From Ceratodon purpureus (Eukaryota; Streptophyta; Bryopsida; Pseudoditrichales; Ditrichaceae), in contig CM026426.1 of assembly GCA_014871385.1 (NCBI GenBank), forward strand, positions 19,168,270-19,232,269: a DNA stretch of 64,000 nt, given 5' to 3'. Positions 13,500 through 64,000 of the stretch are shown piece by piece (position 1 is the first letter of the stretch; each line of letters starts with the position of its first letter). A program made the translations under genes and the position numbers. The notes beneath the pieces are model-generated. The model was given only the letters and a program-made list of their open reading frames with translations, did not search any database and was not told the origin of the DNA.

Positions 13500-14940
13500 G
13501 CCCACGCTATATTGTGCATAGGACTTTTTTGAGGGTTGCCACCAATGTTATGGTTTAGAATACGGGCATTGATTGTAGCCAGGGACTGTAGAACTCCGTC
13601 ATTGTTTGCTGGCAGCACTCTGAACTAGGGACCGTTCGCGTCCAGACACCTCAGACTTTCTTCAATTTCAAAACAATTTTTATTTCGAAACTTGGACTTT
13701 TTGAAAGAAATGGGATTCTTTAAATTTTACCATTTTTATTTTATTTTTTATTTGCAACTTTGGAAGAGCATGTAGGCACCAAAGTCAAGTAGAGGAATAC
13801 GGCCTAGGTTTATGTACCACCTCCCTCAAAAATCTCTTCAGTAGTTTCTACTAGCATAGACCGAGATGAAGATCTCTTTAGTGAGGCGACAAGTGAGTTG
13901 TAGACTCATGAAAAAACGTACAATATCTGTTGTACGTTCTATGAAGGGCTAGGTGAAGAAAAGCTGCAAAATTTAGAAAATCATATGGAATAGTATTAAT
14001 AATAGTGGTTTATGTTGCGTCCACTACGAATTAGTGCTAAGGCAAATCATAGAGTATTTTCTGTTAATGTATTTTTCACATTGTAGCAAATATTTACATA
14101 CATTATTTTAATTTATCATAATTATACCTCCTAGGAATGTGATAATCATTTTCAGTGTGTAACTGAATCTCTTAACTATACTCTATAGAAATGATGTATC
14201 GTGAATTGAATGATGCATTTTTTACTCAAGTAAATCTACATACTATCTAGTGGCTCCTTGATCATTGAATGAATAGTATAGAATGGATAAAGATTTGTGG
14301 ATGAAAAATATATTAGGTTAGAACCCGCGCGGGTGCCCTCTTCAACTCCACATTCTTTTTCTCATTGTCTCCCTGCTCAAGTGTGTACAGTTTGCACTCG
14401 TAGGAGCTGTGTGGGTGGGTCTTTCGGATTCAACTAGTGAGTCATTGATTTTACAGTGAATGTTCAATGATTTGTTTGTGTGGTATGCGAGTGGAGTCGT
14501 CATTCTATTAGATTAAGCAAAGGAGACTATGAACTTTCACTTGTGATTAGATCTAGTCGGATTTGAGTGTGTGAACATTTTGAAAGATGTGTTGAATGAA
14601 ATTAGAATGGGTGATTAAAATACGTGTTCGGCACAGAATAGGGCAAGAAGTAGATGTGAGTGTGATAGAAATATGCAGTTGGGATTGTAGTCTACTTTAG
14701 GTCGTTCATTGGAGTGACAAGTTTTTGGTTTAAATCACACTACTTAAATGTCAATGAACTAGGTTCTGTGCCGAACAAGCTTTTTGGACTAAGTATGATT
14801 AAAAATGTGATGTTCACATGATACAAAGCTTGTGATCATGTCAATGAGATGTCGTTGTTCAGTGCCAAACGGATAACATACCCATGTTTGACTATGTAGA
14901 TTTTCGTTACAGATTGTATCCCAAGGGAGCGTGGTAGCAA
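13500..14940. promoter_or_regulatory. Non-coding part of unit; presumed leader of gene copy E (copy 1)
   Basis: AT-rich 1.4-kb stretch without a supported gene, directly upstream of the first ATG of copy E at 14,942. It holds E-family motifs at 14,626-14,639 (GTTCGGCACAGAAT), 14,763-14,776 (GTTCTGTGCCGAAC, nearly the reverse complement of the first) and 14,857-14,870 (GTTCAGTGCCAAAC). The position matches the palindrome-loaded leaders and introns of the B and C genes. The same stretch recurs 4970 bp later in each unit. Confidence 0.4.
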
Positions 14941-14941
14941 G

Positions 14942-16628
14942 ATGGCCGACGCATCAAGTGCAGGCAATACCAATGTCCATGGAGATACATGTACTTCCAT
15001 TCTCCTTTATTTAATATTCACAAATTATTGAATTGGCAATTGGTAATTGAATTTCCAATGTTCTGAACCGAACTCCATACATGGTTAGACTTAAATAGTG
15101 TGATGATTATGAATGTTTTGAAATTGCATGACGGACATGGTTGAGGATGGGCATAAGACTGCAAGCCCTATTGAGCTAACACAAGGAATTCAAGGTATCT
15201 AATCCTTGATCATTAGGTAATTTCCTTGGTATCATTTGTTTCCTTAAGTAAAATGAATCTACCTCCACAGATGTTCATGTTTAAGCAGTTGCAAGAAATG
15301 ATGCAGAAGGATCAGAAAATGACGACTAGGCCAAAAATCACAAAGAAGCCAATACGGGTACTTTACTAATCCTATGACCACATCACCATTTGATTATAAG
15401 CATATAAATTAGATGGATATATCAGTGCCTTTGCTTGATCTCAAGTTCCTCGTTCTGTGCCAAATGACCTATCTGATTGAAACTGATGCTGCTCAATCGC
15501 TATTGTCACGAGGAAGACAACGATAATAATTTGGGAATGGACGGAGATGATGGTAATGAGGGTGAGGACATGATTGAAGATGGAATCAGTGAAGATGACG
15601 CATCCGATCAAATTGAAGTCCCTGCTCAAGATGAGAATATTGATGAAGACGAAGTACTTGAGTTCGGACTGGAGATGACTAAAGCCAATTTGGATGCTAT
15701 GGAGGAGGACGACTTGATCGTTGCTCACAAGACGACAAGGATCAATTCAATCCAAATACAAAAGCGCTAAGAGATTTTCAAGGGGGGGAAGTCTCATATT
15801 GACATACCGCTTTGTGCAATGCGGAAGCTGCAAGTGGTTCGTTTGGCGCTTGAAAATGATATCATAAAAATGCAAGCGGATTTCATACATGGCTATCAAT
15901 AGGGGGCTACAACTTTCTATGTTTCCACCACTAATTTTGAAGGCCATGAGAAGATGGTCATCCAAGAAGAGCCATAAAAATGGAGTCCACATTGGCAGAG
16001 AAGAGATTTGGAGTTTGAAGAGTTCCTAAAAAGCGACAACGAACTTTGTGAGCTGTCCAACAAGTTTTTTATGTGTGGGATGGCAACCATTGTTTGGTTG
16101 CCTAGTATGATTTTATCAAAAAAATTCATCGTAAGGAGTATGATTGGCATTTCAGGGTGTGATCGATTATCCTACGCTCAAAGAACAACGTTACAGATGT
16201 TCTCAATGCTATGCACGACATCAACAAATCCAACAATAACTCACATGTCAAACAGAACACAGTTCACACACTTCACCGAATTCAAAAACTTGGATCCTTG
16301 CCCATTGAGCAGTTTTGGAAATTCCTGGCCCTAGAGGAGATGTATGTGGCAATGAAAGGATTCGGATGTTCCTCCTAAGAAAAAGCCGTCCAAGAGCAAA
16401 GTTCTTAGACTTGATTCATTGTGTAAGCATGCCTTACGTTTCAAATTGTATTCCATGGTCAGTTTTTATGAAAGTAACGTGTATATTCAATGAGTCTCGA
16501 CATTTGAATATGTTGTGTAACATGAAATCACCGAGGTATGAGATGAAGGCCAACGGAAATACAAAGAGGAGACACTTAGGCAGAGGCGCGTTGCAAATGG
16601 TTTGCTGAAGGCAATTAACGGCGCGATG
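14942..16628 (+). pseudogene. ParB-like gene copy E, 5' half, unit copy 1
   Basis: Several short exons appear likely: 14,942-14,990 (MADASSAGNT...), about 15,120-15,195, 15,271-15,357 and 15,450 onward, each ending or starting near GT/AG. After an acidic stretch (15,530-15,700) the frame aligns with the element C gene. KSHIDIPLC matches KSRLCIPLC, FIHGY matches FVRGY, and NKFFYVWDGNHCLVA matches KKFFHVYEGNHRVTA. The last is a ParB-like GNHR box in which Arg has become Cys. Stops interrupt the frame (15,768 TAA, 15,899 TAG, 15,975 TAA, a TAG just after the box, a TGA near 16,160), several at positions where the C gene has a residue. The copy is cut at GAMD by the tandem duplication. Role by homology: DNA-site recognition; this copy is not functional as read. 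Confidence 0.55.
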
Positions 16629-16877
16629 GACTACAACAAAGACTTCTTCCATTGCATCTTGGGGCTCTCCAATAGTGGCTACAAGTTCTCGGACCTCAAT
16701 AGTGACAAGCATTGCAAGAAGTCGGCGTTCTTGGAGAAATTGCCAAAGCGGTCGTCTGGGCGACACTATGTCGCCAACTGTAAGGATGGGAAAGCGGTGA
16801 GGACCTACTTGCAGACCCACGGGAAGGTTTATGGAGGTGACCTTGACAACTGCTCATTCCGGACTTCCTTCCTTTGA
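16602..16877 (+). CDS. Chimeric ORF at first duplication junction
   Basis: Open frame of 91 codons created by the duplication. The first nine residues (MLKAINGAM) come from the end of the copy E exon; the rest (YNKDFFHCILG...) comes from the ORF at the left end of the unit. The two parts are separate in the flanks (11,660 and 26,572), so this fusion did not exist before the duplication. Expression is unknown. Confidence 0.35.
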   Translation: MLKAINGAMDYNKDFFHCILGLSNSGYKFSDLNSDKHCKKSAFLEKLPKRSSGRHYVANCKDGKAVRTYLQTHGKVYGGDLDNCSFRTSFL

Positions 16878-17137
16878 GCGTGCCACTTGTTCTTTGAGGA
16901 GGGCAAGAACGTCAACTTTACCCTGAAGGCAGAAGTCCTACGGAAGGCGCGTAAGAAGCAGGGTGGAGGAATCCAATAAAGCTTTCACTACCAACCTTGA
17001 GGGAGCAGATCAAAGCCATTATTGACTTCCTTGCTAGCCACATCCCCAGCGGTGGTGGCAGGAAGGGCAAAGGCGCAGTTGATGATGAACCGCTCAGTTG
17101 CTAGACAGTTGGAGCCACCACCAAGGCAGTCAAGACC

Positions 17138-26703: not shown

Positions 26704-26750
26704 AGATTAGAATTTTGAGCATAATGTATCTTAAGATATGCATTACAAAT

Positions 26751-26851
26751 GCCGTTCGGTACCAAACGGCATAGATATGAAGCGACATCGTTGGCATTTG
26801 GTACCAAACATGTTTTCTTTTAGGCAAGGTAGATGTTGTTCAGTACCAAAG
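26751..26851. repeat. E-family palindromes downstream of the array (3 copies)
   Basis: 26,751-26,770 reads GCCGTTCGGTACCAAACGGC, a 20-bp palindrome with one mismatched pair. 26,796-26,810 carries ATTTGGTACCAAAC and 26,838-26,851 GTTCAGTACCAAAG. The last two lie in a short tandem repeat that shares GATGTTTTCTTTTA and AGATGTTGTT. They fall between the two halves of gene copy E, where an enlarged intron would be. Confidence 0.7.
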
Positions 26852-29493: not shown

Positions 29494-29758
29494 AACACTA
29501 GGGATTCCCTTTGATGTAGATCCATATGGGCCAGCTGTTCTCGATTTGACATGTGGCAAAATTCAAATACACGGGCTGGCGGGAGTTGATGTCCAGCCTC
29601 GGCGGCAGGATCTACACTTTATTAAATCACACAGCATCCTAGCGTCTCCAGACAACGTTGCACAGATTGGTCATTTGATTACCATCATCCATGTAATGTA
29701 GAATCATCCTGCTCCTGAGAACTGTGTATTTGTTAAGCGTCTGAAAGTTATGGAGTAA
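29494..29758 (+). pseudogene. Coding-like remnant of unknown family
   Basis: An open frame reads IPFDVDPYGPAVLDLTCGKI and continues with HFIKSHSILASPDNVAQIGH. A TAG at 29,699-29,701 interrupts it before NHPAPENCVFVKRLKVME and a TAA at 29,756-29,758. Residue composition looks coding. It may be a later part of copy E, but it does not align convincingly with the B or C genes. Confidence 0.3.
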
Positions 29759-29993
29759 GGGGTATTTAAGTAATTATGGACAAAACGCTCAATTATGGAC
29801 TACTTTGCATCATCAGTAGACGTCCAATTCATGTGTTATCCCTCAAATTTAAAGACAAAGATGTCAAATATTTATGAAAAAATGCATTCCGCTTACAAGG
29901 GATAAAATCATTTGAGTGAATTCTACTATAATGTTGAATAGAGGACATCCAAGTCCCACTGTCATGGCCAAATCTCTCGGCGAGTGGCTGACT

Positions 29994-30410
29994 GAGAACC
30001 CTAAACCCTAGAAACCCTAAATCCTAGAAACCCTATCCGCTGAAATCTATCTATTCTAATAAAAGGAAATACTTGCTCTGCAAATTGTGGATCTGTGAAG
30101 TGAAGCGGGTGAAGGAAAGATCGTCGTCGACCCGCTGAGTGGACACGACTGCCAGGCATCTCACATTAGGGTGTCCGTCTGTGAGGACTCCGGAGTCGTC
30201 GTTTAGAATGAACAGTATTCACGGTCACAACGAATGGAAGTCCTTTCTAGTCGGCTGGCTGTCGACTAGGAGAGCCAACGTCTTCCTCATTGAACCGACC
30301 TCTGGAATTTGAAGTACATATAAAAATGATGAGTAAATAAAGTCACATAGTGATGCATTAAAAATACATCAGGAAGAAAAGTAACTACCCATATGGTTTA
30401 GGGTTTAGGG
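29994..30410. repeat. Telomere-like motifs in opposite orientations
   Basis: 29,994-30,040 has several CCCTAAA/CCCTAGAA motifs. About 30,397-30,410 carries TTTAGGGTTTAGGG on the same strand, so the two clusters are inverted about 360 bp apart. They precede the first B-family palindromes and could mark the left edge of element B. No gene is supported between 29,760 and 30,900. Confidence 0.45.
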
Positions 30411-36160: not shown

Positions 36161-36173
36161 CGGACACGTCCAC

Positions 36174-36990: not shown

Positions 36991-37010
36991 ATGGCTGCCT
37001 CTGAGAGTGG

Positions 37011-47031: not shown

Positions 47032-47384
47032 GTACGTAATTTGAAATGCATAATATGAGTTTATTTTGTATTGTTTACTATAGTTTTCATTGTGTTAATT
47101 TTTTGGTTGTAGACTATAAAGGATGGAGTACTATTGGTTTAATATATCTTTAGCACGAGGTCTTCATTTAAGTGACTCTTATGGATGTTTTATAATCTAA
47201 TGTTGCCTATAGTGAAACTACATATTAAAATATGAACATCCTTTGAATGTTCATTATGCATTCTTAATAAAAATTGCGAGCTTTTTGGTTTTTAATACCA
47301 TTATTTTAATATTAATTATGTGTTTCTTTTAAAATGATAGAATTGACAAAGTACACAAAGTAAGCTTACAATTAAAAGTCATGA

Positions 47385-47600
47385 TACCCAGGCAGAAGCT
47401 GCCGGACAGGGTATGAGGTCAAAACCCGAGTATTATCCTGGTTTGTATTTTAGACTTCCAGAACCCGGGTAGATGACCACTTGGAATCCGGGTATGTGGC
47501 CATATGATATCCGAGATTATGGCCATATGGAACCCGGGTTGGTATTAGTGTATATGGCCAGGTATCAGGGTATATGGGTAGGATAATATGTTCAGGGTAT
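47385..47600. repeat. Short tandem repeat of CCCGGGT / TATGGCCATA motifs
   Basis: Irregular tandem units of about 24 bp combining GAACCCGGGT with TATGGCCATATG: 47,458, 47,482, 47,506 and 47,530, with weaker copies near 47,400 and 47,560. Both sub-motifs are self-complementary (CCCGGG, CATATGGCCATATG). They lie in the presumed intron 47,032-48,013. No gene is supported in this stretch. Confidence 0.55.
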
Positions 47601-48708
47601 TTGACCAAGCTGTTGAACCCCACCAAGGTCCATCGACAATGGACTTGGGGCGCCTAATTTGGGGATTTGTAGTTGGAAATTGTCCAGTGATGGTCTTGGA
47701 TCTTTGTGTGTAAATATGTATAGTGTGTAAATATGCTACCAAGTTTAGAGTGCTTATCAACACGATCGCCTCAGAACAGAATTTCGATATCACTTTGCAG
47801 GAATTGAATTAGCAAGTGACAAATACTATAATGGAGCTTCTGTTTTTAGAGTACTCCAAGATCGGTTCGTTGATTAGGAGAAGCGAAGTGCTTTCGAGGG
47901 CTTCGATTAGATCTGGAGGTCTTGGCCTACTTATGGGAAGGTGTTCGAATTATCAGTTATCTTTCTTTCGTGAACACGGTTGGATTTTTGAGTTTAGGTT
48001 AAAAATCTTTCAGGGAGTTGCGATGGAGATTGGAGGAGAAGAGTCTCAGGCAATCGAGATGGAGGTTGGAGGAGATCCTTCGCACGCAATCGCGATGGAG
48101 GTTGAAGGAGCAGCTGCTGTTCTTGGCGACGTATCTCAAACGGTGGACGTGCAATTTGATCATGTGAGTTGAAACTACCAATTCTTATTTTTGCCCTAAA
48201 CCCTAATAAATGTGTAAGGGGATTGCTTAATGCAGCCCGTAGAGACAGCGACATATAGGAGCGCTACAGCTATTGGAGCTTCATAATCCTTCTCCGTAGA
48301 GGTAAGCCCTAATTTGAAATGGTATGCTGCACTGATTGATGAATACGTGAAAGTGCTGTATAAAGATTGATTGATTTTGTAAATTTGGTCACGGTTGATG
48401 TTGTTGATTATCGAATTCTGTTCTGGTGAGAGGATGGTGATATATGAATTCGGTTGGTGATATAGTGCTGTCTTTTAAGTTGAGGTTTATACTTTGTGGA
48501 GGTAGTGTCTCGGTTTTACATTCTGTATGTAATTTCCCAAGTTTATTTTTTGAGTGCAAAATTCAAATGTCGAGAATGAATCCGTTATGTGACTTCGAAG
48601 TGTATGTTCTTAGATTAAGAGTGATGGAGAGTAAGAGTTAGAAACTATATAGTACGCGTTATTTTTTGCGATTTGACAGGAGGAGTTTAATTTTATTTCA
48701 TATCGGTT

Positions 48709-50567
48709 GCAGCCTACGTTAACGTAGGCTGCGTTATTTGCATTTTGACATGCTCTTTACAGCTTGATAATCAGCATCAAGTGGGATTTATTTTCTTGAA
48801 CAGATTTTGAAGGGTTGAGCTTAAGGTTGAGATTGAGGGTTGGGGATGAGGTTATGTCACCTCCTCATGCGAAACCGAGAGGAATATATCACAGAGCTCG
48901 TGAAATGCTAACCATAAACGAAATACACTACTATTTCAGGTTCCACAGTCGAGAGCTTATCTCTTCATAACCTGGTGACTCTAACCTACATAAAATACAC
49001 ATATAGTTATGCCATGTCTTGAGCAGGTTCTGATCTAGCTCACTTTTATTTTAATCTAGTTGCAGCCTACGTTAATGTAGGCTGCGTTGAAAAGCTTGTA
49101 TGTTGCCGAGAGTTAATATTCTATGATTTCATACCGGGTGGGTTAAGACATGTGCATTTCATAGATTTTTGCTTGCAGCCTACGTTAACGTAGGCTGATC
49201 TGTTGTGCTCCTCTTGGTTGATATTCTCGTTGATATGTTTCCGGAAATCTGCAGATTCTGAGATTTGGCAGGGTTTAGGCACCAATTATTTGCATTGAAA
49301 TATTGCTTGATTGAGTTTTATTTGCTTGATTGCGTTTTATTTTCATATTGGGAGTTCTGTTTATATATTAACAGTTAATATATTTCAATTTTTTTATATT
49401 ATGATTAGTTTGGTTATGATAAATTTACATTTTGATTATTTCAGCGAGCAGCCTACATTAACGTAGGCTGCTTTGTTCTGCTCCTCTTGGTTGATATTTT
49501 CGTTTCTCATTGTTATATTCTCGGAAATCTCCAGATTCTGAGATTCGGCAGGGTTTAGGCACCAATTATTTGCATTGAAATGTTGCTTGATTGAGTTTTA
49601 TTTGCTTGATTGAGTTTTATTTGCTTGATTGCGTTTTATTTTCATATTGGGAGTTCTATTTATATATTAACAGTTAATATATTTCAAGTTTTTTATATTA
49701 TGATTGGTTTGGTTTTGATAAATTTACATTTTGATTACGTTAACGTAGGCTGCTTTGTTCTGCTCCTTGGTTGCGTATGAAATGCTTTAGTTGGGATTTG
49801 AGATGGTTCAGGATGCATATTATGTTGAGATGCTGCGTTGATATAATTGTAACTTAGTGACTGTTGTTAAATTCCACATATTATATGTTATGATTTGAGA
49901 TAAGTTTAGGTTAAGATTGTCTAGTTGCAGCCTACGTTAACGTAGGCTGCGTTAATGTACGTTGTTTGCATTTTCACATTCCTCTGTGAGCTTCGTTATG
50001 AGCTTCAATTAATTTTTAGAAGGATTACGATTGCATAAGATATCATTTTGGTTGCAGCCTACGTTAACATAGGCTGCGTTGAATATTTTTTAGCTTGTTG
50101 CATGTTGCTGTGTTATTCTTGTTGTTTTTTAGCTTGTTGCATGTTAGTCTTGCTGCATGTTCCTCTTTCAGCAAATGCAAATGCTATTTTATTGTTGACG
50201 TGTTTTATGTTTCTGGGAATGAGCGGCAATGGATTCTCTGGGAATCTCGAGTTGCAGTAACATCGCTGTTCTCTCATATGAGTTCTTTGATAGTGGGTAG
50301 TTCCATCTGTTGCTCATTCGTTTCTAGCTACGTTTGTTTTTGTGGGTTTGGTCTTAGGAGTTCAGGGGGACGGGAATGCAGAGATTGAAGCTGTGTATGA
50401 ATAGTGCCGATGCTTACTGATATGTTTGATGGGGGTGTGGCTTATTGTGAAATAGTGGATGGAAAGATTTTGTGAACAGAGCACCACGAAGTACATTTAA
50501 TAGCTTGTCTATTTCAAGTCTCGTTACAGAGTTCATAAATGTTGCAGCCTACGATAACGTAGGCTGC
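48709..50567. repeat. C-family palindromes in intron 2 of gene C (8 copies)
   Basis: Palindromes of 24 bp, GCAGCCTACGTT joined to its exact reverse complement, at 48,709-48,732, 49,062-49,085, 49,175-49,198, 49,448-49,471, 49,736-49,753 (left part missing), 49,927-49,950, 50,054-50,077 and 50,544-50,567. All lie in the 2.6-kb intron 48,302-50,900, each with 0-2 differences, while the DNA between them is not conserved except in a local tandem. None of this family was found outside element C. Confidence 0.9.
49175..49753. repeat. Tandem repeat of about 280 bp opening with a palindrome
   Basis: Two units (49,175-49,447 and 49,448-49,735), and the start of a third at 49,736, each begin with the C palindrome. 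They share GCTCCTCTTGGTTGATATT, CGGAAATCT.CAGATTCTGAG and GGCAGGGTTTAGGCACC. The periods are 273 and 288 bp. Confidence 0.8.
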
Positions 50568-52211
50568 GTGGATATGCATTTGGTTTGCACACTAGTGGAT
50601 ATATTGCTTGTAAATTAGTATTTCGGTTGTTCACAATGCTTCTGAAGAAAAGTGCCGCTGCAGGCTGGTGATCAGTTCAAGTGATCAGTATGCTCCTTGG
50701 TACTGATACTTTTTTTGATCAATGCTCTTGCAGAATGATGTTCCTTCGAAGACTATCCCATTGGGTTCACATTGTTCAGCTTGTTTTGAATTTTGGTTTT
50801 AATAGTTCATATTCATGTATTTAGTGGTTGATGTTTCGAAATGATAATACACTTCCTATATTTTTTAAACTAACTCAATATGTGCATTCTGTTGACTCAG
50901 ATGAAGCTATCATCTACTACGACTCCAGATGATCCTCTTACATTGCCTCGACAAATCATTCTCGAATCGCATGGTGTCGTTGCAGCGCAAGGAAAGAACA
51001 ATATTTCATAACAAGCAGCTGCTCCCGTTCTTAACGAGCCCCATGTGCCAGACCTTGTTCAATCGCCTTTAATCGATGCTCCTCTCAGTGTTGAAACAAC
51101 TTTAGGTGCTGATCCTGGGTTGATCCCGCCGCTTCCTTCCAGGCCTCACTTGGCGCCGGACGCACCTGCGACCTTTGACTCTCCGATGGCTTCTGAAACA
51201 GATTTCGGTGCTAAGCAGATGCCTAATCATCTTGCTGACCAGGACCCTCTTTTTACCGCGAATGAGATGCGACTGTTGCACAAGAATGACTGCGTGGGAA
51301 TCATTAATCGACTCAAGAATGTGCCTCAATCGAAGTCCAGGTTGTGTATTCCCCTTTGCCGTCTAATTGCTTGTCCACTTGTTCGCCCCATCATCGAGCA
51401 AGACGTTCGAAAATTGGAAAATGATTTTGTACGAGGTTACCGCGAAGGTGACCGTGTCATGTACGTATCCTTGTATGATGCACATGACTTGGAGACTCCA
51501 GTGACCGGGTTGGAAGAAGTGTGGTCAAATCCCTTATGGAAGGAAGAGAACGAGAGATTCAAGGCGCTTCTTCAGGCGGATCCTGACCTTCATCAGTTTA
51601 AGAAGAAATTCTTTCACGTGTACGAGGGTAATCACAGAGTCACTGCGTGGACACAACACATTCAAACCCTTCATGCTGATGACCCTGATTGGTACATCTC
51701 ACCTGATTGCATCATCTTAGATGGACGCCGACAGCATGGACTTCTACTCAACGCCATAAACGACATCAATTGGTACTCACTTTAAACCTTAATATTGTTA
51801 AGTATGCATCGCAGTTACCTTGACTCTAATTCCTCAATTTCCATTGAATAACAGGTCAACAGAGAATGACCACATCACACAGGGTCTACCGGCTAAACTA
51901 CAACGAGTGCGAACTTTCGGAAAACTAGAACTTCAAGCCTTTTCTGAATTGATCAGTGAGGAGGACATGGACCTCTGCCAAAAGGTCAAAGGGAGACAAC
52001 CGACTTGGTATTCTTTAACAATGGATGTCTTCGTCAAATTTCTCTTCTCGGTATGTCTTAGAGTTTCCCTTGATTTGTTTGATGGCTGTCACTTGTTGCA
52101 AATAAGTAATGCACAAATTCTGGTTTAGGGCACTGCTTTAGCCTTTGATCATTTACTATCTATGAATGGGGGCCCGAGGGGCTTTATAAATCTATTCCTG
52201 CTCGTTCGCTT

Positions 52212-52235
52212 GCAGACTACGGTAACGTAGCCTGC
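52212..52235. repeat. C-family palindrome in intron 4 of gene C
   Basis: GCAGACTACGGT followed by AACGTAGCCTGC, a diverged copy, alone in the 1.05-kb intron 52,051-53,097. Confidence 0.75.
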
Positions 52236-54739
52236 CCTTACTATCTCTTGATGCTGCAATTCTGGGGCATCTGGAAGCATTCTTTATGTTCGTGAAGGTT
52301 TCGGCTGTAAGTGGTTGGTTTTCGTTTGGGTCGTAGGGCTTGAATGTCTCGGATTGGTTTCTTCTACGATCAGTGGAGGTTGGGAGGCTTTGAGTTAGAG
52401 GATTAGTCCTTTTTTTAATGTCTTAGTGAATCATTAAAATACGTATCATTTAAATTCTGATTTCCACTGACTCTACATGATTTCGACTGAAGTTTAGAGT
52501 GCCGCCTTGTCTGTTTTGAGAAATAGAGACCTTGTTCACATTTTTTTGGACTTTCAAATTAAGGTTTTAATTTGCAATATAATAATTTAATTTCATTGTT
52601 AATACTTTTCAGCAGTTCATTTAAGTTCTGCTGTACGCAGTGAAAGGGCATACAGTCTCTCCTATCGGATAATACGCAATATAAATGCTTACTGCTGTTG
52701 CTTGATTGTTGCTTAAAGCTTAATGCTTACATTTGGTGTTCATATTCCAGATTTTGAAACGATTAGAAATGTCTTAAGTTCATTGAGTAAAAAATCATTT
52801 GCCCAGATTTAATTAATGAATCTGTTTGTAATAAATTAGTTTAGTTGTAGATATATTACCCTAAACAGTCTAGTAACGAATATATATTTACTCCAAGTAT
52901 ATTTCCGTGACTTGAATTGTCACTGCTGACGAGCTTCCATGGGCAGGTTTTCGTTTGTTCATTGTTAATATATCACATCCCTCGATTGATATTATCATGT
53001 ACCCAATTAAAGGCGATACAAGCTACTACCTCTGATTCATATTTCTTGCAGATCTGTATAGGTTTTATGATTTATTACTTATAATCTGCTTATACAGGGC
53101 GAGGTCTCAAAAGCCTCCGACATTGCATGCGCAATTTATTACGAAAACACTCCTAAACCAACGGGACATGGTGTTTGGAAGGCCATGGAGACAGCTGTGC
53201 AGAAATGTATCAAGACAATTCGAGGAAAGAACTTTGACAAATTGGTAGCAGTTGCTAATCCTGCACTCGGAGAACCTTTTGAGAAAGAGGTACTTTCAAT
53301 ACTTTTGCACCTCAATTTTTACATTTCTCTATAACATTAAAAACTGACCTCAAATTCTGGCAGATCAATTATCACTACTCGTATTTTCCTTCACCACATG
53401 ATTTGACACTCGACCGGCTTCACAAGATTGCCACGACCAACGTCCCATGCGATTATAAGACGAAGTGGCTAAAATGGTGGAATGCAACGCTCGCCGTACG
53501 CAAATCAGTTAAATTTCCTGCAGATCGTCCTATGAAGGACAAGATTCTTGACCCCTGGCTTCATACAGCATCCTTGTGGGCTCAGGTATTCACACGACCT
53601 TAACTTTTACAATTTCCTTCTGTAAACGTGTCATCTACTTCCCATTAAGTACTCTAACAATTTTAATAATTACTTCTGCAGTTGGAGGTTTACCTTGTTG
53701 GTGAGGTCCAGAAGTTGGTAACCACGCAGAAGCTCCACATTGATTGGTCAGTTGATGTACTGAAACCGGCTGAGTATGTTGAGAAATGGAGGATTTCGAT
53801 GTGGAAGAAAGCATACGGGTTTTTACTTTCGCCTACTGCAAGCCCCAAATTCCATAAGGGATCGGACCTGTTGAAGATTGATGGTGGAAAGATGGTTGGG
53901 AAGCGTCTGCTCTACAGGTATCATGATTCGGTACCCATCTCTACATTCTTTCATATTCCTTCCTGGAAATTTGATCAAGTGACAGAATCATTTGTAGTAG
54001 TTTGAATTTAACTGAATTCATTTTGAATAAATGCTTGTTCTTCATGAACCTTGCGAACCAAGGTTTTAGTCTACTTAAATGCTTAGCTCAGTTTAGGAGT
54101 GTATATCTCACACAGTGTCTAACAAATAGAAATCAATTTTTGTGCTCTACATCGAAATAGTACACGGTAGTAACCATTTTACACAAGTTAACAATTATTT
54201 TGCTTATTGCGTTTTTTTACACGAGGTATCATTGAGCTCGTAACCAGGCTCTCTACTGTTCCCATTGCAATTTATAGTTTCCAATTATATTCATTTTGTA
54301 TTGTTTTATTCAGATCTGTAGTAAGCAGCTTTAAAGCCTGAAGCTTAAAACTGAAATGACTTCATCTGAGCTTCGGGGTATTGTAGAGCCATCAGGTAGA
54401 AGACCCTAAATTCTATAATCACTAACTGCCCCGGCTTCGATAAAGCTTTTACGACTTCTGTACATATTAACTAAAGCTATTATGGTTTTTTTGTCTTCTT
54501 CAAATTTATTTAAATAACTTTCTTGGTCTGCAGGTACCTTCGAAACGAGCTGGTCCATAAGGGAGCACTAGGAGCCTGGGCCATGCCCAACGAGTTCGAG
54601 AATGTTGCTTCACCAGATGCTGTCGACAGCATCTTCACACAAGATCAAAAGCAGCGTTTCGATTATGAGTTGTTATCATCTGGGGCTTGGTTCCTGGAAT
54701 GTGAACGAAATATTGTTCACAAAGAAGAAGCTCACCTGG

Positions 54740-54761
54740 TCCCCCCCCCCCCCCCCCCCCC
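54740..54761. repeat. Poly-C tract in exon 8 of gene C
   Basis: Uninterrupted run of about 22 C that codes for a polyproline stretch and shifts the frame. The downstream coding frame (RIDDEEVEFEEATEVPA...) is not the one entering the run. Such a tract is also prone to sequencing error. A similar run of 17-18 C lies near 5419-5436 in the element A gene. Confidence 0.8.
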
Positions 54762-57700
54762 CAAGTCCATCATCGAACGCCACCACACAGCTACGTATTG
54801 ATGACGAAGAAGTTGAATTCGAAGAAGCCACTGAGGTACCTGCTGCGTCGGTCAACCAGAGCAAGGGTCGTGGTGTTCGTGGCACTAAACGGAAGAACAA
54901 AAAAGCAACCACCCCTTGAAGAAGGGAACGGAGATCAGGTAGAAGACCCCGTCCTTCCCCACCATACCGCGCCAAATACATCTAGACCCTTGGCAGCTCC
55001 TGGTGCTGGTTTAGGTGCAGAGATTTTGAGTCAAACTTCTCATGGGGCTGCTCCGCCTGTTGGTAGACTTGGAACCCACTCTTCCCAAGCGTCTGAGGGT
55101 GGTGTTGTGAATGCGTGCTCCCGTCCTTCTTCCAAGCTTCATGGAGACTCCGCTCATTCTCCTCATCGGGGAGGTCACGCCAAGCTATCCATGCGACCTA
55201 TACCTGTGCCTAAGCCACTTGGCTCTACCTCTACCGCTCCTAACGTCCCAAACTTGCCTATGTACTTGGAAAAGGGAGATCTGGTCCAGTTGGTATGCGA
55301 GTCCAACCACAAGAGTACTTGGGTTCCCCAGATTTTAGACATCGTCCGCCATATTCATAAGGTACTCAATTCCACCTTCAGTATTAAACCACATTCGTTA
55401 GTACAATCATTGTCTACTCTTTTGAATATCATGTTCACTAACAATCCACCGTATGTTTTCAGATTGGACAAGGCCGCAACTATCCCGTCACGTGTATGGA
55501 ATTCAAACCAAAACATCCAGGCATTGACTTGATAATTGCAGATGCTCCGGATGGATTGCCTATTCCAATCATCTCAGAGTTTGAAGTTCCATCGTGGAAC
55601 GTACGGGATAAGGACTACGTGGAAAACCTTTTTTACTTTGGATCCTATCATCTGACCGACGTGGGATGTATCCTTCTTATGCATGCGAAGGATCGAAAGC
55701 TTGAACGCGTTTTGGATGACCGTTCTCGTGCATACGATTTTTGTGTTGTTCGGGATTGGTGGGGATACAATCCTCTCCCCATGGCATCTACTCTACCTCA
55801 TCAGAAACTAGTAAGTCTTTCACATTTATGCTTACATTTATGCCAAACCAATACTGCAATAGTAACTGCGTCAGTAGAATGGGTTTGAAAGGGTGCATGA
55901 GAACCATATTCGAAATTGCACATCTTAGGGCTGTTATCCTTTTGTAATTTCTGCTTGTACAGACTGAACGTGCTCGGATTTGTATACACTCTTATGTTAC
56001 ATTGCTCACATTACTAATCGAAATCATGCCAGTTCAAAATTGCACCGTACTGGAAATTTAGTGAATGACTGCTATTGGAATTTGCGATCCACCTTTTCTC
56101 AAAGAGTAATCATGTTAGAGACATTGACTATATTAACTTTTCTTCGTATTTGTTTCCTTCATAAACCTGCAACTACACTCAGTTCAGTATATAATGGTGA
56201 TTCCAATATAACATGGTACACTATTAGTGAACATGCTGACTAGGATAAAAATTTAACAGCCCTTTATGTACAGCTGATGTGTGCTACCTGAACCTTCTGA
56301 CTGACTAGGATAAATATTTAACATCCCTTTATGTATAATTGATGTGTGCTACCTGAACCTTCTGACTGACTAGGATAAATATTTAACAGCCCTTTATGTA
56401 TAGCTGATGTGTGCTACATGAACCTTCTGAGTTAATTTGCAGTTACATTCACGAGTCTGAATTTGTCATAATTATATTGCTAGACCAGATTTTTAGAGTA
56501 TTCATTCAGATGATTGTTTATCTCATTTAAGATGTATCAGCCATGCATTTGAGTTGGAAATTAAGATCTTGCTTTTTTGGATGCAGAGCCTATAGTTCTT
56601 TAGCTCTTCTGGTCGGAGCTTATTATTGAAACATTTACTTACTAACTACTGCATTTTTTGTAGACACGCAATTTCAACATCAAGGTCTATGCTCGCAAAA
56701 CAGTGGGTCTTAAATTCAGAACTCGACAGTTGACTCAGGAGTATGCTGGAGTTAACGTCGTTCCAGATGAGCAGGATGATTTGTGTAACTTCACCGATGA
56801 GCAGTCACAGCTCCTGCGTCCTGACGGGACACCTTGGCGTGGCGCCCGTGAGAAGGACCCTTCTTTCATCCAGAGCTTTGTGGACTTACTCACTGACGAA
56901 AGGGACATTGTCTTTGACTGGAGTGCTAGTACAGGTATGCTGATGTCCGCTTCTCTCATTTGCTTAATCCATTTTCGTAAATCTGCCATAGAAAGCTGTT
57001 ATCTTGTGTTAGACATAGTTTGCCAACTCTCTGCTTTGTGATTCGTGTTAATACCCTTTCATTGTGCTTTTTTGTAAACCATGCTTTCGTTTCATTGTGC
57101 TTTCAATTCCTCCTTTACATTCACGACGGATTTAGCCTGGTTAATTTGTTTCTGTCCTACGTTTTGGTTACGCTTTCTGGTTTAAAATGCTTGCCTACCT
57201 TTGCTCAGTCTGAGTGGTTCCATTCTGATTATTTATTATAGTACCTTTTCGATTTCTAACAAGTCAGAAATCAATATTCGTCAATATCTAATTTGTTAAT
57301 CCATTTTTTCAGATTTTTTGGTTCAACCTCTGGTCACTGTCGAGGGATCAGTCTGCTTGATCTCTTCTGTTAATTTTTTTTATTGGATCGCCTCATGCCT
57401 CAAAATGTTCATTTTCATTTACCATCTTCATGTCGATTTAATGTTTAAAACTTTCTCGCATTTATTCCCTAATTTTTCATTCTTTTCATAATGCTTGTTA
57501 TTTTCATCCTGGATCTCCTACCTATTTCAAATTTTTCTTGACAGTCCTTCTCACCTATGTCTGTTTCCTGTCTGAGTTGATTATATTTATTTGAATTTTT
57601 ATCCAATTGCGCGGGCTGTTTTTAGTTCTAGATTTTCTCCCTTCAGTTTCATTTAGTATCGCTCCGTTCTATAAACTATGATCTTCTTCACTATGCTTCA

Positions 57701-58512
57701 GGGCACATGTCGATGCCTTAATTGTTCTTTGGACTGTCCTTTTTCTGTATACATCTTGAGACTCCCTTATCTTGCTTTCCGGTTCTGACTGTATATGTGT
57801 GCCCATATCCAATTACTAACTTATACTTGGTCTTTTATAGGTGCATCGATCATTGTCTGTGCACGCTCCAACCGTCACTTGATCGCATTGGAGCGTGACA
57901 GTGAAATTTTTGACGGAGTACTAGCTGCGTACAAGTCCAATCCCATTGTCACCGAACATATTGCTGAGTCTCAGTTTGACTCTGACAGTGACTCTCCCCC
58001 CCCAAAAAGAGGGCGCAAACATATGGGTGCGTAGCAATTTCTTCCCCAAATCATCTTCTACCATTTTCTTTTCAGATACCAATCGAATCATACTTTATTT
58101 TGTTTGCATTTGTAGGTATGCAGGAATCATACAGCGAGTGACGGTTAACTCCGACCTCTAGAACAGCCCTCCGTCTACTTTTTCTCTACCTTCCTATGCC
58201 GAGGGCATTGCACAAGAATTTATCCGTGCACCTTCTCCTATCATCCCCGACATTACTCGTTACCGCTACAGCGATGGAGTGTTCCGTCTTTTAGACATCG
58301 AAGCTGATCAGTGTGACCAACATCCAAGTGATAGTTCCCCTTCTACTTAGTGCCTGGCTCTTTATTCCCATGTTTACATTACATGGCATTTGTAGTGATG
58401 ATTCACCCTCTACTTAGTCTATGGCTATTTATTTTCATGTTTACAGTATTTATCATTCTTCATGATAGACATCATGTGTCTCTATAACATGATATAAACT
58501 TTGTTTGATTAA

Positions 58513-58953
58513 CTAGTCCTCTTGCAAGTATTGAACTGCTTCATCTAGGGTACTGAATGACTTGTATTGGGCGCCGCTGTACCTATGCACCCTTCTCTTG
58601 CACTCCTCCCACTCTTGAACCACACCCGGTTTCAATCCTCGTCGTACAGCGTAGTATCTCCCTTCCTTCTTTGTCAAAACCCTAGATCTGAGATTTGACA
58701 TCTCCCTTCCCAATTGCACCTCCCGTCTCATCAAATCCACAACATCACCCTGTTCAGTCTCCTCTTCTGCCTGCAGAATCTGAACTCTAGAATCCCGTCT
58801 CTGACCTTCCCTAAACCATCGATCTACCCGTTCAAACAAGACTTCGCAGATACGCAACATCAACGCCGCCACTGCCCACACTATCAAAGCAACAATTTCT
58901 CTCACTCCTCTTCTATCGGACAAACCTCTATGACTACTACAACTTTCCACCAT
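58513..58953 (-). CDS. Small protein with viroplasmin-type (RNase H hybrid-binding) domain
   Basis: 146 codons from ATG 58,953. Residues about 20-42 (EIVALIVWAVAALMLRICEVLF) could form one membrane segment. Residues about 60-95 look helical and charged. The C-terminal 45 residues, GRYYAVRRGLKPGVVQEW then EECKRRVHRYSGAQYKSF and TLDEAVQYL, match the RNase HI N-terminal hybrid-binding (viroplasmin) domain: YYAVrkGr.pGiy..W.eck..v.g..ga.yKsF.t..eA..fl. There is no RNase H catalytic domain attached. It lies tail-to-tail with gene C at the right end of element C. The known domain binds RNA/DNA hybrids or duplex RNA; a role in the transposon is unknown. Confidence 0.7.
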   Translation of the reverse strand: MVESCSSHRGLSDRRGVREIVALIVWAVAALMLRICEVLFERVDRWFREGQRRDSRVQILQAEEETEQGDVVDLMRREVQLGREMSNLRSRVLTKKEGRYYAVRRGLKPGVVQEWEECKRRVHRYSGAQYKSFSTLDEAVQYLQED

Positions 58954-58980
58954 TTCTGCAACGACACACTACCACTATAA

Positions 58981-59525
58981 AGTGACTAACGCACGCAGCG
59001 AATACAAGAAACTAAGGTCCTGAGAATGGCTTCCTAAGCCTCCTCGATGTAACTTATACTAGAATGTTAACTGCCTCCTATTCTCTGTTAGGGTTTCATC
59101 AATAGCGATTGTCAGACATTCATCCGTACTATGAACTATCAGTAGAAGTGGATGCTGGTATTGTATTTTCACCGTCGTTTCATATATGACCACTTATAGA
59201 TTATGATGTCAGCCCTAATCTTGCACTAAACATATTCTAACATTAATTATTCTATAAATTTAATAAAACTCTTAGACATTAAAAGCATCGACAGTCTAAC
59301 CTTCTAATAATGATCTTCTATTATTCATCTTTCTAATGATGATGTCAGCCCTAATTTACCACGATAGAAATATTATAATTAGTTTTTAGGACCTTATTAC
59401 CACGGAATTAGGGTAGTCTTCTGCGTAGAAAAAAACTCCACAGAATTCAATAATGTCAAAATCCGTGGTAATAGGGTCTTCCTGTTCCATTAAATGTTTT
59501 TGATCAGAGCGTAGGCCAGCAGAAT
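58981..59525. other. Right subterminal spacer of element C
   Basis: No gene. AT-rich. It contains ATTACCACGGAATTAGGG near 59,396 and TCCGTGGTAATAGGG near 59,462, which are inverted to each other and match the left subterminal CCTATTACC..GGAATTT motif near 41,248. Confidence 0.45.
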
Positions 59526-59580
59526 TTCTACGCTCTACGCTCTACGCTCTACGCTCTACGCTCACACGTGTGTTTTTCCC
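59526..59580. repeat. Right terminal inverted repeat of element C
   Basis: Five CTACGCT-type heptamers ending in CTCACACGTG. In reverse complement it reads ...TGAGCGTAGAGCGTAGAG, the same as the left end at the same distance (16 bases) from the border. The outer bases are CCC on this strand. Confidence 0.82.
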
Positions 59581-59590
59581 CAGAGGTAGC
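59581..59590. repeat. Right target-site duplication of element C
   Basis: CAGAGGTAGC, identical to 41,054-41,063. Confidence 0.85.
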
Positions 59591-60344
59591 CGAGAAATAC
59601 ACGGACGACTTAGACTATGAACCAGAACCCGACGTGGTACCACTGGAAGATTCGAATCCTCGTTACGTGAACCCACCGCTGTCGCAAGTTACAGGGGAGC
59701 AAGGAAATGACTCCCTCAGCTTCGGTATTAATTTTCCTACAATACATGAGCAAGAGACTCCTCTCGCCGAGCCAGAACGTGACCGAGACCAGGCGGGGCC
59801 TCCAAAGAAGATGCAGGTTCCTCTAGCATCGAGGCTTGAGGATGAAGTGGTTGTTTGTGTCCATAAGCCAACCCAGGAGCCTGCAGTGAGCATTGAAGGG
59901 CCTCTTCCTCCTGCTGCCGTTGGCGGGCAGCCGACGGCAGACGAGAAAACCTCATCTAACCCCTCTGCCAAGTCCAAGTTGACAAGGAAGTCAATCGCAT
60001 TTGTCACTCAAGGTGCGAAGGGCGCAACTCGGATGATTGGCCCAGATGAGAACCCTCTAGGCAAGACACGAGCATTGAAGAGAAGTAAGATCGATGGTAC
60101 TGCTCAGGATTCCTCTCTTGTGGGTAACCTATCCCGTGATTCCTCAGGGGTTCAGGAAGGGGAGGAGTCCTTTGGGAAGGGCAAACGGAAGGCTGCTTCG
60201 AAGAAGACTTCCTCCAAGAAGGGCACATCTGGGGATTAGCTCATGAGTCCTAAGAATGTGGACGCTCCAGAGGACGTTCTGTCACCTCCGCGGGCATCCA
60301 AACGGGAGCCTAGGATGAAGAAGCACAAAGGTGGAGGTCAGTAA
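59591..60344 (+). pseudogene. Gene B, part right of the MULE insertion
   Basis: Directly continues the frame of exon 4 that breaks off at 41,063: ...DAEVA on the left, then EKYTDDLDYEPEPDVVPL here. The product is a hydrophilic, charged linker (acidic, then Lys/Arg/Ser-rich: KGKRKAASKKTSSKKG) without a known domain. One B palindrome (59,918-59,936) is translated in frame as VGGQPT. A TAG at 60,237-60,239 interrupts it; the frame then runs to TAA 60,342. A donor at 60,336 (GGAG|GTCAGT) is in the right phase to splice to 60,595, so the FCP1-like module may have been part of the same gene. Confidence 0.55.
59918..59936. repeat. B palindrome inside coding sequence (VGGQPT)
   Basis: CGTTGGCGGGCAGCCGACG, in frame in the right part of gene B. 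The same motif class appears here in the opposite orientation relative to the VGCPPT copies of the minus-strand gene. Confidence 0.85.
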
Positions 60345-60507
60345 ATCAGGCGGTGGCCCAGTCCATCTTTTAAATGCCTGCATTGATAAATTAGTGTAGT
60401 GATCGGGCGCTAGGATTGTGTTAGATGTTTGTACTGCCAAATATGAATAAATTTTCAGTAAATGCCAAGTTGTACGCTCTCCCTTTCTCCAAATAATGTT
60501 GCTTGCA

Positions 60508-60526
60508 AGTCGGCTGTCCGCCGACC
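60508..60526. repeat. B palindrome between gene B and first FCP1-like module
   Basis: AGTCGGCTGTCCGCCGACC in the presumed intron 60,337-60,594, followed by two half-sites (CCGCCGACCG near 60,536). Confidence 0.8.
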
Positions 60527-60594
60527 GTCGTCCTACCGCCGACCGTCGTCCTAACCGTCACGTTTGTCTTCTGCTTCATTTTCTGTGACTCCAG

Positions 60595-61364
60595 AGTCCG
60601 CGGACAAGGAAGTCCATGGAAAACTTCGCAAAGACAGACCCAGTGCAGTTCTGGAGCAGGGACCTCCACCTCTGAATTCACTTCACATAGCCCCGGAACA
60701 GGCTAGTACTCAAGTACACGATCCAGTGCTGAAGTACTTTCTGGTTCTGGATATTAACGGCCTGCTATTAGTCCTGACGAAGCAGGGCACTAGGTGGAAT
60801 ACTAAACTTAGACCGGGTTTAGAGAAGTTCCTAGAGTTCTGCCTGGACAATTTTGAGGTGGTCTTCTGGAGCTGCGTTCAGGAAAAGAGGTTCGAGATTC
60901 TGTGGACAGTGTTGCAGCAGCGCTGTCCTCGTCTAGATGCCGAAGTGCGCTACAAGTTCGACCAGAGTTTCTGCGAGACTTGCGTACATAAGGCTGGTAG
61001 GGAGTTTTATTTGAAGAGACTCCAGACCCTCTTTGACCTCGATGACGGGCTGAAGGAGACGGGGGCGTCTTCAATTAACACTCTCTTGGTTGATGATTCC
61101 CCTTATAAGAATGTCGCAAACACTCCTTGGAACGCTGTGCACCCTACACCATATACCTTCGATTTGAAGGAGTCGGAAAATAAGAGGAATTATTTGGTTG
61201 GAGAATTGATTCCTTGGCTTACCAGTTTGAAAGAATCTAAACTACCCGTGCCCGAGTACTGCCAGAAACACTCCGAATTCGGTCAGCGTCGTTTGTTTCC
61301 GGGGGATGAAGCTTATAGTCTCTTCTCTCCACACATTGATTGCCCTAAACGAAAGAGAACATAG
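60595..61364 (+). CDS. FCP1-like HAD phosphatase module 1 (degenerate catalytic motif)
   Basis: Exon opened by acceptor CTCCAG (60,594). After a hydrophilic leader come KYFLVLDINGLLLVL, LRPGLEKFLEFCLDNFEVVFW and NTLLVDDSPYKNV..NPW-type motifs, which are typical of the FCP1/NIF (CTD phosphatase-like) branch of the HAD superfamily. The family signature DxDx(T/V) is changed to DINGL, so the second Asp (general acid/base) is missing. The VDDSPYK metal-binding motif is kept. Family size (about 180 residues of domain) is complete. Ends at TAG 61,362-61,364. Probably a pseudophosphatase or phospho-protein binding module. It could be the 3' end of gene B or a separate gene. Confidence 0.68.
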
Positions 61365-61402
61365 TAGATGTAGAAACTGTTTTAGAGAACATGCACATGA
61401 TT

Positions 61403-61421
61403 CAGTCGGTTGCCCGCCGAT
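61403..61421. repeat. B palindrome between FCP1-like modules 1 and 2
   Basis: AGTCGGTTGCCCGCCGATG in the spacer or intron 61,365-61,622; no gene lies in that spacer. Confidence 0.75.
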
Positions 61422-61788
61422 GAGATCTTCATGTATTTAGACTTATACAGTAAATAAAGTTTTCCTCCTTTTAAATATATGAGAACGGAACTCAGTGTCG
61501 AGACTGTGTATTCTGTCGTGGGTGTCTTATTGTATCTCCTATTGTGCACTACAGCAAGTATGAAGTGTGAGCACGCGATAAATCACCCATGTTTTCTTGG
61601 AATTTGTCCTTCATTGTTCAAGAGTCACTGGAGGATGACGCTGAAATTGAAGTGCACCAGGGACCTTCCCTTCTTAGTACGCTCTTGGAGCAGTACCCAG
61701 CATCTCCTAATGGTGATGTTCACAGAGAAGAGTCTCTGGGAGCGGAAGCCGAGAACGACAGTGATGGAGAGGACGAGTACGACTATTC

Positions 61789-61807
61789 AGTCGGCGGGCC
61801 GCCGACG
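61789..61807. repeat. B palindrome inside coding sequence (VGGPPT)
   Basis: AGTCGGCGGGCCGCCGACG, translated in frame as SVGGPPT in the leader of module 2. Confidence 0.85.
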
Positions 61808-62694
61808 CTGTCTGCTGCACATAGCTCCGGCCGGTGTGCTATGGCTTCCACCTCGTTCGTCGAGACCAACGATGCGATCCCGCGCACCGGTTCCCCGCGC
61901 GATGATTCCGTCAGTGTCAGCACTGATATTATTGCGCGTAATATTGAGGTACCTCTCCAACGATACTACCTTGTCCTTGACATTAAGGGATTGCTCATCG
62001 CGGAGCACCATGGGTATATCGGTGATGACCTGAAGACAAAAATTCATATCCGGGCTAGACCAGGACTTTTTTCATTTCTAGAGTTCTGCACGGCGAATTT
62101 CGAGGTAGTCTTTTGGTCCACGGTTTCTGAAAAGAATCTCGATCGTCACTACCAGAAGCTGTTAGCCATTCATCCTTTGCTCAGGAGCAATTACAGACGC
62201 CTTCCAGGATTCTGGTGTGATATCTCAACACGGACTAATCTGAATGGGAAACGGGAGTACTTGTTGAAGCGTCTGGATAGACTTTTCTGCGACACTAGGC
62301 TACTCGCTCAATCAGGTGCCACTGTCCAGAATACCCTACTGGTAGACGACCGGCCGTATAGGAATGTACTTAATCATCCATTTAGCGCTGTCCATCCTAA
62401 TTCTTTTGTCTGGGACTCTGCAGAGTGCAAAGAACCTCAATCCACCCCCAATCCCTATTTAACTAGGGTAGTTACACCATTCCTTGCAGGACTTAAGCAG
62501 TCTGGATTGGATGTCTAGGAGTATTGTAGGAAGAATTCTAGCGTGGGGAAGCCACGTCTTTTTCCAGAATCTCGCAAATACCAGAAGTATAGGGAGGTTA
62601 TTCCTTCTCATGCATGCGGGTTTGACGTCCCGGGTAATCCTGGATCTTGGTTTGTGAATTTACCTTGTCCTCTGGAGGCCCCTGGTAGTTCCAT

Positions 62695-62713
62695 CGTCGG
62701 CCGGCAGCCGACT
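62695..62713. repeat. B palindrome at the 3' end of module 2
   Basis: CGTCGGCCGGCAGCCGACT, in frame as VGRQPT just before the stop. Confidence 0.8.
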
Positions 62714-62928
62714 GATTAGAGCCCATACCAGCGGCGCCACTTGTTTTAAAAATCATATATGATACTCTACGCTCTTTAGTTTAATACGCTAAGACTATTC
62801 CCTTTCTGAACTTCCCTGCACCACACATTTGTTTCCAGTGCTGCAATTCGGTACTTCTTTTTGTAGATGCATGCATGACATTTCCCTTGCTGCACATTTA
62901 CCTTTGAGGTTTCTTCAATTCATCGTTT

Positions 62929-62947
62929 TGTCGGCGGGTCGCCGACA
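62929..62947. repeat. B palindrome between modules 2 and 3
   Basis: TGTCGGCGGGTCGCCGACA in the spacer or intron before the acceptor at 63,028. Confidence 0.8.
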
Positions 62948-63028
62948 ACTTTGAATATAGTCCATTTCTTTCATATACTTCGTCCTGTTCCTTGATTTCC
63001 TTCACTGATTACACTTCATATTCTTCAG

Positions 63029-63706
63029 GGTTCCTCGTTTTATTTCAAATGCCTTCACGGTCCACCCCATCATGTCAAGCAATGTATTGTCCTATGCGTC
63101 AATGGCCTTCTCTGCTATGTGGATCCCATGATAGAGGCTTTGCCATGGGATACGCATTGGAATGTAGTGAAGCGCCCAGGTTTGAAGAAGCTTTTCGACA
63201 TGCTTTTCTTGCATTTCCATGTTGGTCTATGGTCGAAGATGCCCTTGGGAGAACTGAAGCCTTTACTCACACATATTCTGCCGGCCGGTGTAATGGAGAG
63301 GCTGTCCTTCGTGTATAGCAGAAGTGACCTTATCGACCGGGAGAATTTCCCCTAGAGTTATAAGACGTTAGGTCAAGTTTGCTCCAAGGTACAGTCTCGT
63401 AACGTCTGCAAACTAGATCAGGTGCTATTTGTGGATGTTGACCCGAGGTCATTGAGGAAGACACCAAACTGTATGTGCTACATTCCTTGGCCTTTTCAGG
63501 GTCATCTAAACTTTCCGAACGATGACGGCGTTATACCTAACATTGCTACAGATATCCTTCCTCTGGTTTATCCCTTGCACAAGTTCGGATCTGTACCGGA
63601 GTATATGGCGCAGGCGTGTAGGCCGGGGCAAGTGCACTGGGCAATTGAAGCTGCGAGAAAGTTTGGACGTGCACGAGTGGACTGGACTGAAGTTTGCTGG
63701 GACTGA
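63029..63706 (+). pseudogene. FCP1-like HAD module 3 (in-frame TAG)
   Basis: Exon after acceptor TTCTTCAG (63,028). One frame reads CIVLCVNGLLCYVDP, KRPGLKKLFDMLFLHFHVGL and, after a TAG at 63,353-63,355, DQVLFVDVDPRSLRKT and later PLHKFGSVPEYM. The place of DxDx(T/V) is CVNGL, so both catalytic Asp are gone, while the pattern RPGL..F...F.VG.W.. and LFVDVDP keeps the FCP1-like fold signature. It is the most diverged of the three tandem modules. Frame ends at TGA 63,704-63,706. Confidence 0.55.
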
Positions 63707-64000
63707 GTTAGGCGGACTTTTTCGCCTACAACTTGCACTTCTTCCCTCCTCCTGACCAACAGAACACCTTCCATCGGCTGCCCGCCGACTTGGTCGATCC
63801 GTTTGTGCGGCCTTCAAATATATGATTTACTCATTGACCTTACGGCTATGCTTTCAGGGAAATAGTTCCCCGAGTAGGTTATAATGTGATAGGATTTACG
63901 TCAACTTGGTACATAGTGGTGGGTGTAGACTTAATGTTGTAGGACTTAGTGACTCAAAGTGCTACGGGACTAGTTAGTTTAGCGTGTTCTATTATCGGCG
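63707..64000. other. Tail of window with B palindrome
   Basis: CATCGGCTGCCCGCCGACT at 63,772-63,790 shows that element B still extends here. No further gene is visible; the right end of element B is not recognisable inside the window. Confidence 0.5.

Follow-up and report, generated by a model that had tools for sequence, protein, structure and literature searches.

Two different transposons, here called B and C, have one layout in a 64,000-nucleotide stretch of the genome of the moss Ceratodon purpureus (G000:C6:19168270-19232269; hereafter the window). In both, a transposase-like gene pointing leftward and a ParB-like gene pointing rightward flank an array of palindromes, and each transposon has its own private palindrome. 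The palindrome families of B and C are genuine and far above chance, while that of a third locus, E, is degenerate. The initial annotation of the window had described three homologous ParB-like genes (E, B and C), each among a different palindrome. We consider it somewhat probable that each palindrome family provides cis sites for the ParB-like protein of the same transposon family, serving private binding, coating, and regulation or shielding of the element. All genome-wide scans covered one 362-Mb genome. A relative of the C protein, P0004, is recorded as 'hypothetical protein KC19_VG030900, partial [Ceratodon purpureus]', and this locus tag suggests that contig C6 is the V sex chromosome.

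The B element was defined by comparing the window with six palindrome clusters on contig C1 (K1-K6), among which K4 aligned only partially to the window copy. It is a DNA transposon, 15.6-15.8 kb long, whose inverted ends (~28 bp, AAGGGGTATTTAAGTAATTATGGACAAAA-like) are imperfect and whose 4-bp target duplications vary by copy (by eye, TTAT, ATAA, ACAT and AACA; K1, K2, K3 and K5/K6). Identity is 97.1-99.99% among K1-K6, where K5 and K6 have common flanks and represent one segmental duplication, and 94.1-95.5% to the window copy. The latter is split by the insertion of C at 41064-59580. The 10-bp duplication CAGAGGTAGC stands at both borders of C, 41054 and 59581, and nowhere else in the window, as expected for MULEs, whose target duplications measure 9-11 bp. 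The ParB-like gene of this B copy contains stops (in 38293-39031), is interrupted by the C insertion and resumes at 59591.

The word of the B family is GTCGGCKGNCMGCCGAC. In the window, 13 exact GTCGGCN5GCCGAC sites occur at 31.7-40.5 and 60.5-62.9 kb, and 26 sites with at most one mismatch lie in the B element; at three mismatches, 50 matches were found versus 19 for the reversed control, so that only closer matches count. K5 (15,819 bp) contains 30 sites with at most one arm mismatch, whereas 60 shuffles yielded 0.017 on average and never more than 1. At the same threshold, 162 sites fall within the element at the six C1 loci, as against none in ~29 kb of flanking DNA. The genome contains 1231 copies of the 19-bp form and not one of its reversed control. 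From the counts at the six C1 loci and the listed clusters described below, the B motif is dense in its own element and rare elsewhere, as in VANC-type systems.

The C palindrome is 24 bp long and has eight window sites at up to three mismatches, while its reversed control has none at up to six. Its 20-bp core is found 181 times in the genome at up to two mismatches (reversed control, 0). No family crosses between elements within the window at the mismatch thresholds used for the motif counts, in agreement with the initial annotation, and the B copies do halt at the borders of the MULE-like C element: the single B match at up to three mismatches inside 41064-59580, at 49440, overlaps a C site.

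Tandem arrays, with units of 74 bp in B and of 138 (L048), 108 (L051), 128 (L050), 171 (L052) and ~213 bp (L054) in the relatives of C described below, raise the alternative that the palindromes are functionless repeats spread by minisatellite expansion or gene conversion, and the C units do have weakly similar flanks (0.34-0.35). However, the 12 exact B sites outside the 74-bp array are embedded in flanks of chance-level identity (0.25), while the words themselves are 0.86 identical over 19 columns, indicating that these sites were not spread together with their flanks. Likewise, identity among the eight aligned C sites is 0.92, far from that of their flanks. Across 18 B sites, diversity is 0.017 in the arm columns versus 0.031 in the whole element, and 0.008 in the arm CpG columns versus 0.047 at other CpG (six times less); these sites were chosen because most copies carry the motif, which favours conservation, and the low diversity is therefore supporting evidence only. 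Both motifs are thus kept amid diverged or unrelated surroundings, as initially proposed, and we regard passive spread as very unlikely.

To follow the motif across relatives of the C gene, eight 4-kb loci (L047-L054) were selected on the identity of the protein and the length of the open frame, ahead of any inspection of their DNA. L047, with a core 89% identical to that of C, carries the same palindrome at eight sites. L048 (core 84%) has eleven sites around CAGCCTACGGTGACGCAGGCTG, whose outer arms are as in C and whose centre is changed and partly symmetric; none of the eleven passes the 10/12-pair filter. L051 and L054, with cores 75% identical to each other and 46-52% identical to the C group, form a sister clade with 24-bp palindromes quite unlike that of C, namely fifteen sites around CCCACATTCTGTACAGAATGTGGG in L051 and eight CCTACTGTCGTCAACGACAGTAGG sites in L054 (16 in the cross-motif comparison, being eight sites on both strands). 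Shuffled L051 and L054 gave a mean of 0.25-0.45 windows of at least 10/12 pairs per 4 kb. One palindrome stands in each tandem unit in L054, and mostly in L051, so the site numbers of these two loci are not independent. The palindromes of L047, L048, L051 and L054 are on the upstream side of ParB, like those of C. The cross-region motif counts are nearly diagonal; the exceptions are a single match of the L048 type in L047 and, in K6, a pair of C sites lying 0.2 and 0.9 kb beyond the B element. In line with the expected parallel between motif and protein divergence, the palindrome varies from one ParB clade to another and is shared within a clade.

Short palindromes with 6-bp arms in L050 and L052 were set aside, since by our own estimate they represent one chance palindrome per unit repeated by the array. 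A near-palindrome, TAGTGGACCTCTNGAGGTCCACTC, is common to L051 (1602-1625) and L052 (1585-1608), upstream of ParB and unlike the array words.

Among the best matches, the ParB-like gene of C is mostly paired with the transposase. For each of the best 15 of 68 transposase rows (68-100% identity, window included), the contig also carries a ParB-C match in divergent orientation, no more than 9.1 kb away in 13 cases and at 18 and 29 kb in the other two. Conversely, 14 of the 16 ParB-C places with at least 70% identity have a divergent transposase, the other two being C6:31251910 (L047) and C6:51850933. Over 13 pairs compared with the window as reference (C6:91.7 Mb excluded), mean identity is 92% for the transposases and 76% for the ParB exons. 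In the copy at C1:9.12 Mb, the transposase is 96% identical to that of C, whereas the ParB-like protein is only 73% identical (core 84%) and the palindrome has changed, indicating that the motif changes with the ParB-like protein and not with the transposase.

This comparison bears on another explanation, in which the palindromes are promoter or similar sites bound by the transposase, another element-encoded protein or a host factor. The sites of B and C do lie between divergent genes, the place of a shared promoter, and for most C clusters on the list no scored match to either gene lies nearby (see below), as with non-autonomous elements moved in trans. Besides the changed palindrome beside a 96% identical transposase, the distribution of the B sites speaks against it: they run through 16 kb, are not restricted to the element ends, and occur in introns placed by eye (39068, 40530), between genes and within the DUF7869 gene, in its long open frame (35305, 36015). 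We judge this explanation to be rather unlikely. The one layout, the motif change between ParB clades and the conservation relative to flanks together favour sites for the element's own ParB-like protein.

The ParB cores are under purifying selection, with nonsynonymous (dN) and synonymous (dS) divergence of 0.05 and 0.40 from C to L047, and of 0.12 and 1.67 from C to L048. Silent sites are near saturation for L048, which aligns to the C element by blastn only from just upstream of the ParB core onward. For these reasons, exchange of a ParB-plus-array module explains the motif change equally as well as fast co-evolution, and we do not claim the faster evolution of ParB than of the transposase as a sign of selection.

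Several results weigh against assigning the palindromes to the ParB-like proteins. The 50 listed exact C sites, of the 181 in the genome, fall into 13 clusters. In five of these a ParB-C match lies within ~2.4 kb, the cluster always being on the gene's upstream side, and the remaining eight have neither ParB-C nor transposase among the matches listed. This speaks against strict co-occurrence, although some genes may have escaped the listed matches. Two of the eight are dense arrays (C9:4288527-4290109, 12 listed sites; C6:55165222-55166402, eight) with no ParB-C or transposase among the scored places. The initial annotation had counted palindromes without the genes as evidence against its proposal, and this is partly what we found, for C; for B, gene and motif co-occur in six of six clusters, all on C1, comprising the 50 listed of the 1231 sites, each with a match to the ParB-B exon. 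The gene-less C clusters may be non-autonomous derivatives. In addition, convincing palindromes are absent from four of the eight sampled ParB-C relatives, within 4 kb each: L050 and L052 have tandem arrays with no convincing palindrome, and L049 and L053 have neither array nor palindrome. The E motif, at three mismatches, matched nine times versus five for the reversed control, which is not significant. Finally, the predicted B fold has ParB as its best match with a modest Z, for B only, and homology of B to C and E by sequence was dropped, as hhalign gave a probability of 0.33% between the families. The proposed homology of the three genes therefore holds for C and E, by tblastn, and is not detectable for B and C, yet both of the latter have a ParB-like signature.

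The E pseudogene is held by three head-to-tail 4970-bp units (11660-26571) that are 99.96-99.98% identical, a triplication that is either very recent or an assembly product. The string reported for E occurs just once, at 26754, within one good 24-bp palindrome (11/12 pairs), and one degenerate site has been multiplied by the triplication. Of the three different palindromes initially described, those of B and C are confirmed and that of E is weak.

The B ParB-like protein has 67 relatives, and its exon at 39125-40144 has at least 119 scored matches among 400 genome candidates, all at least 87% identical. A Foldseek search with the B model had no hit at E≤0.001 among PDB or viral structures, and profile searches against solved structures gave no match. 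No curated ParB model from Pfam or NCBIfam matched the ParB-like proteins; phrog_1033 matched P0005 only at E 0.35. No B relatives were confirmed in one scan of viral contigs, and phage records gave no match to P0012. An AlphaFold2 model of the C family, with a predicted local distance difference test score (pLDDT) of 37.7, was not used.

Some pieces of these genes resemble methyltransferase motifs: by eye, VINCWGGGNVTALAL and then LTVIEIVRTEEERYEAHCRVRN in the next exon of the B gene, and DLIIADAPDGLP and VFDWSASTGMLMSA in open frames located downstream of the ParB core of C. The palindromes could accordingly be modification sites, with the ParB-like proteins being degenerate fusions of ParB and methyltransferase that act, or formerly acted, as methylating enzymes on their own element. 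However, no methyltransferase profile of Pfam matches these pieces at E≤10, and the catalytic motifs seem to be altered. We consider modification sites improbable.

If the palindromes are sites for the element's own ParB-like protein, this protein would bind its private palindrome as a dimer, loading at the array between the divergent gene pair and, in B, also at ~20 further sites along the element. It could then coat the element from these loading sites, possibly as a nucleoside triphosphate (NTP)-dependent clamp in the manner of ParB, and the coating might regulate the element's own genes or shield the element from host silencing, following a VANC-like logic. The analysis shows how the sites are arranged and, in the data covered, their element specificity; the identity of the binder, its dimer or clamp action, its use of nucleotides, and an outcome in anti-silencing or regulation are inferred. 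A bolder and rather doubtful extension is that at least two plant transposon types, with ParB-like NTP-switch proteins and their own 'parS' palindromes, constitute a eukaryotic addressing system in which the protein clamps and coats its own DNA only.

Comparable systems share some of these features. In the VANDAL transposons of Arabidopsis with their VANC proteins, such motif-protein pairs can serve anti-silencing, the element-specific short motifs are dense and often tandem, and motif and protein differ between related families, as here (PMC5735166). The VANC21 motifs are described there as 9-bp words in one orientation and mainly noncoding, unlike the 17-24-bp palindromes reported here, and 'palindrom' has 0 occurrences in the main text (PMC5735166). 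The present case further differs from VANDAL in the ParB-like protein, the at least two transposon types, the moss host and the location of some B sites within an open reading frame. Like ParB-parS, it combines a palindromic site family with an adjacent protein for which ParB is the best match of the predicted fold (B only); unlike ParB-parS, it has no recognised DNA-binding domain, and the many sites are transposon-borne and in a eukaryote. ParB proteins are CTP-dependent DNA clamps, and a 2025 survey of the ParB-CTPase fold names sulfiredoxin as the commonest eukaryotic form; the survey's main text has 0 occurrences of 'plant', 'transpos' and 'palindrom' (PMC12704722). Sola1-1_Ec32 of Ectocarpus has ParB-like and DNA methyltransferase accessory genes, with a suggested role in binding and modifying its own element, and the ParB-like gene is on the strand opposite to the transposase, as here; 'palindrom' has 0 occurrences in that source (PMC12477816). 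Our elements differ in having no profile methyltransferase match and in host and transposon types. Within open-licence PMC papers, we found no report of ParB-like genes with private palindromes in moss transposons. If correct, our reading would extend motif-protein co-evolution from one Arabidopsis group to a moss, another fold and at least two transposon types. The paired proteins and sites make recognition, anti-silencing and modification directly testable. A naturally occurring set of such pairs is provided by the ParB-B exon matches, at least 119 in number, and by the varied C clade.

Table 1. Features of the E, B and C loci (window positions, unless a contig is named)
Feature	Position	Strand	Remarks
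E ParB-like pseudogene, with stops and frameshifts	15600..16330	+	Repeated at ~20570 and ~25540; tblastn with P0001-P0014
E palindrome ATGCCGTTCGGTACCAAACGGCAT and two degenerate neighbours	26749..26851		42-bp spacing
B element, left part	29757..41063		94-95.5% identical to six loci on C1 (K1-K6)
B element, right part	59581..64000		Extends beyond window end; aligns to K1-K6 beside left part
B DUF7869 gene	32083..36194	-	Pfam PF25273, E=2e-38 in 32080-33618
B palindromes, exact, left part	31742..40546		31742, 32064, 34143, 35305, 36015, 37023, 37096, 39068, 40530; plus near matches
B palindromes, exact, right part	60509..62946		60509, 61790, 62696, 62930; near matches 59919, 63773
B palindrome tandem arrays	37019..37582		Units of 74 bp and ~40 bp; between DUF7869 and ParB-like genes
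B ParB-like gene	37624..41063	+	Exons ~37624-39018, 39152-40480, 40615 onward; splice sites by eye
B NIF-phosphatase-like genes, right part	60564..62518		Pfam NIF
C element, MULE-like insertion in B ParB-like gene	41064..59580		18.5 kb; 10-bp duplication CAGAGGTAGC
C transposase-like open reading frame, 646 amino acids	43964..45901	-	At least 68 scored of 2659 candidate genome places
C palindromes GCAGCCTACGTTAACGTAGGCTGC	48709..50567		48709, 49062, 49175, 49448, 49730 (half), 49927, 50054, 50544; degenerate 52212
C ParB-like core exons (VYEGNHRVTAW)	51012..52125	+	14 relatives; at least 148 scored of 1869 candidate genome places
C clusters without listed gene	C4:5302226; C6:5569813, 23432774, 29478120, 55165222, 78343925, 99183356; C9:4288527		

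The remaining genes of the two elements are as follows. The DUF7869 gene of B is probably transposase-like, judging from its position within the element. A second DUF7869 gene, at 5485-7861, lies outside the B element and is 31-38% identical to that of B over longer pieces. The two NLI-interacting-factor-like phosphatase genes of B are 40% identical to each other, and K5 has a third phosphatase-related frame at element positions 14518-15225. In C, the 646-amino-acid frame has no Pfam match at E≤10, and a SWIM-like Cys/His pattern was seen in 42349-43167, by eye only. A small gene with an EELRPW motif is present in both elements, at 30859-31308 in B and 41609-42079 in C, with 45% identity over 31-42 amino acids, and may therefore be a second accessory gene common to B and C.

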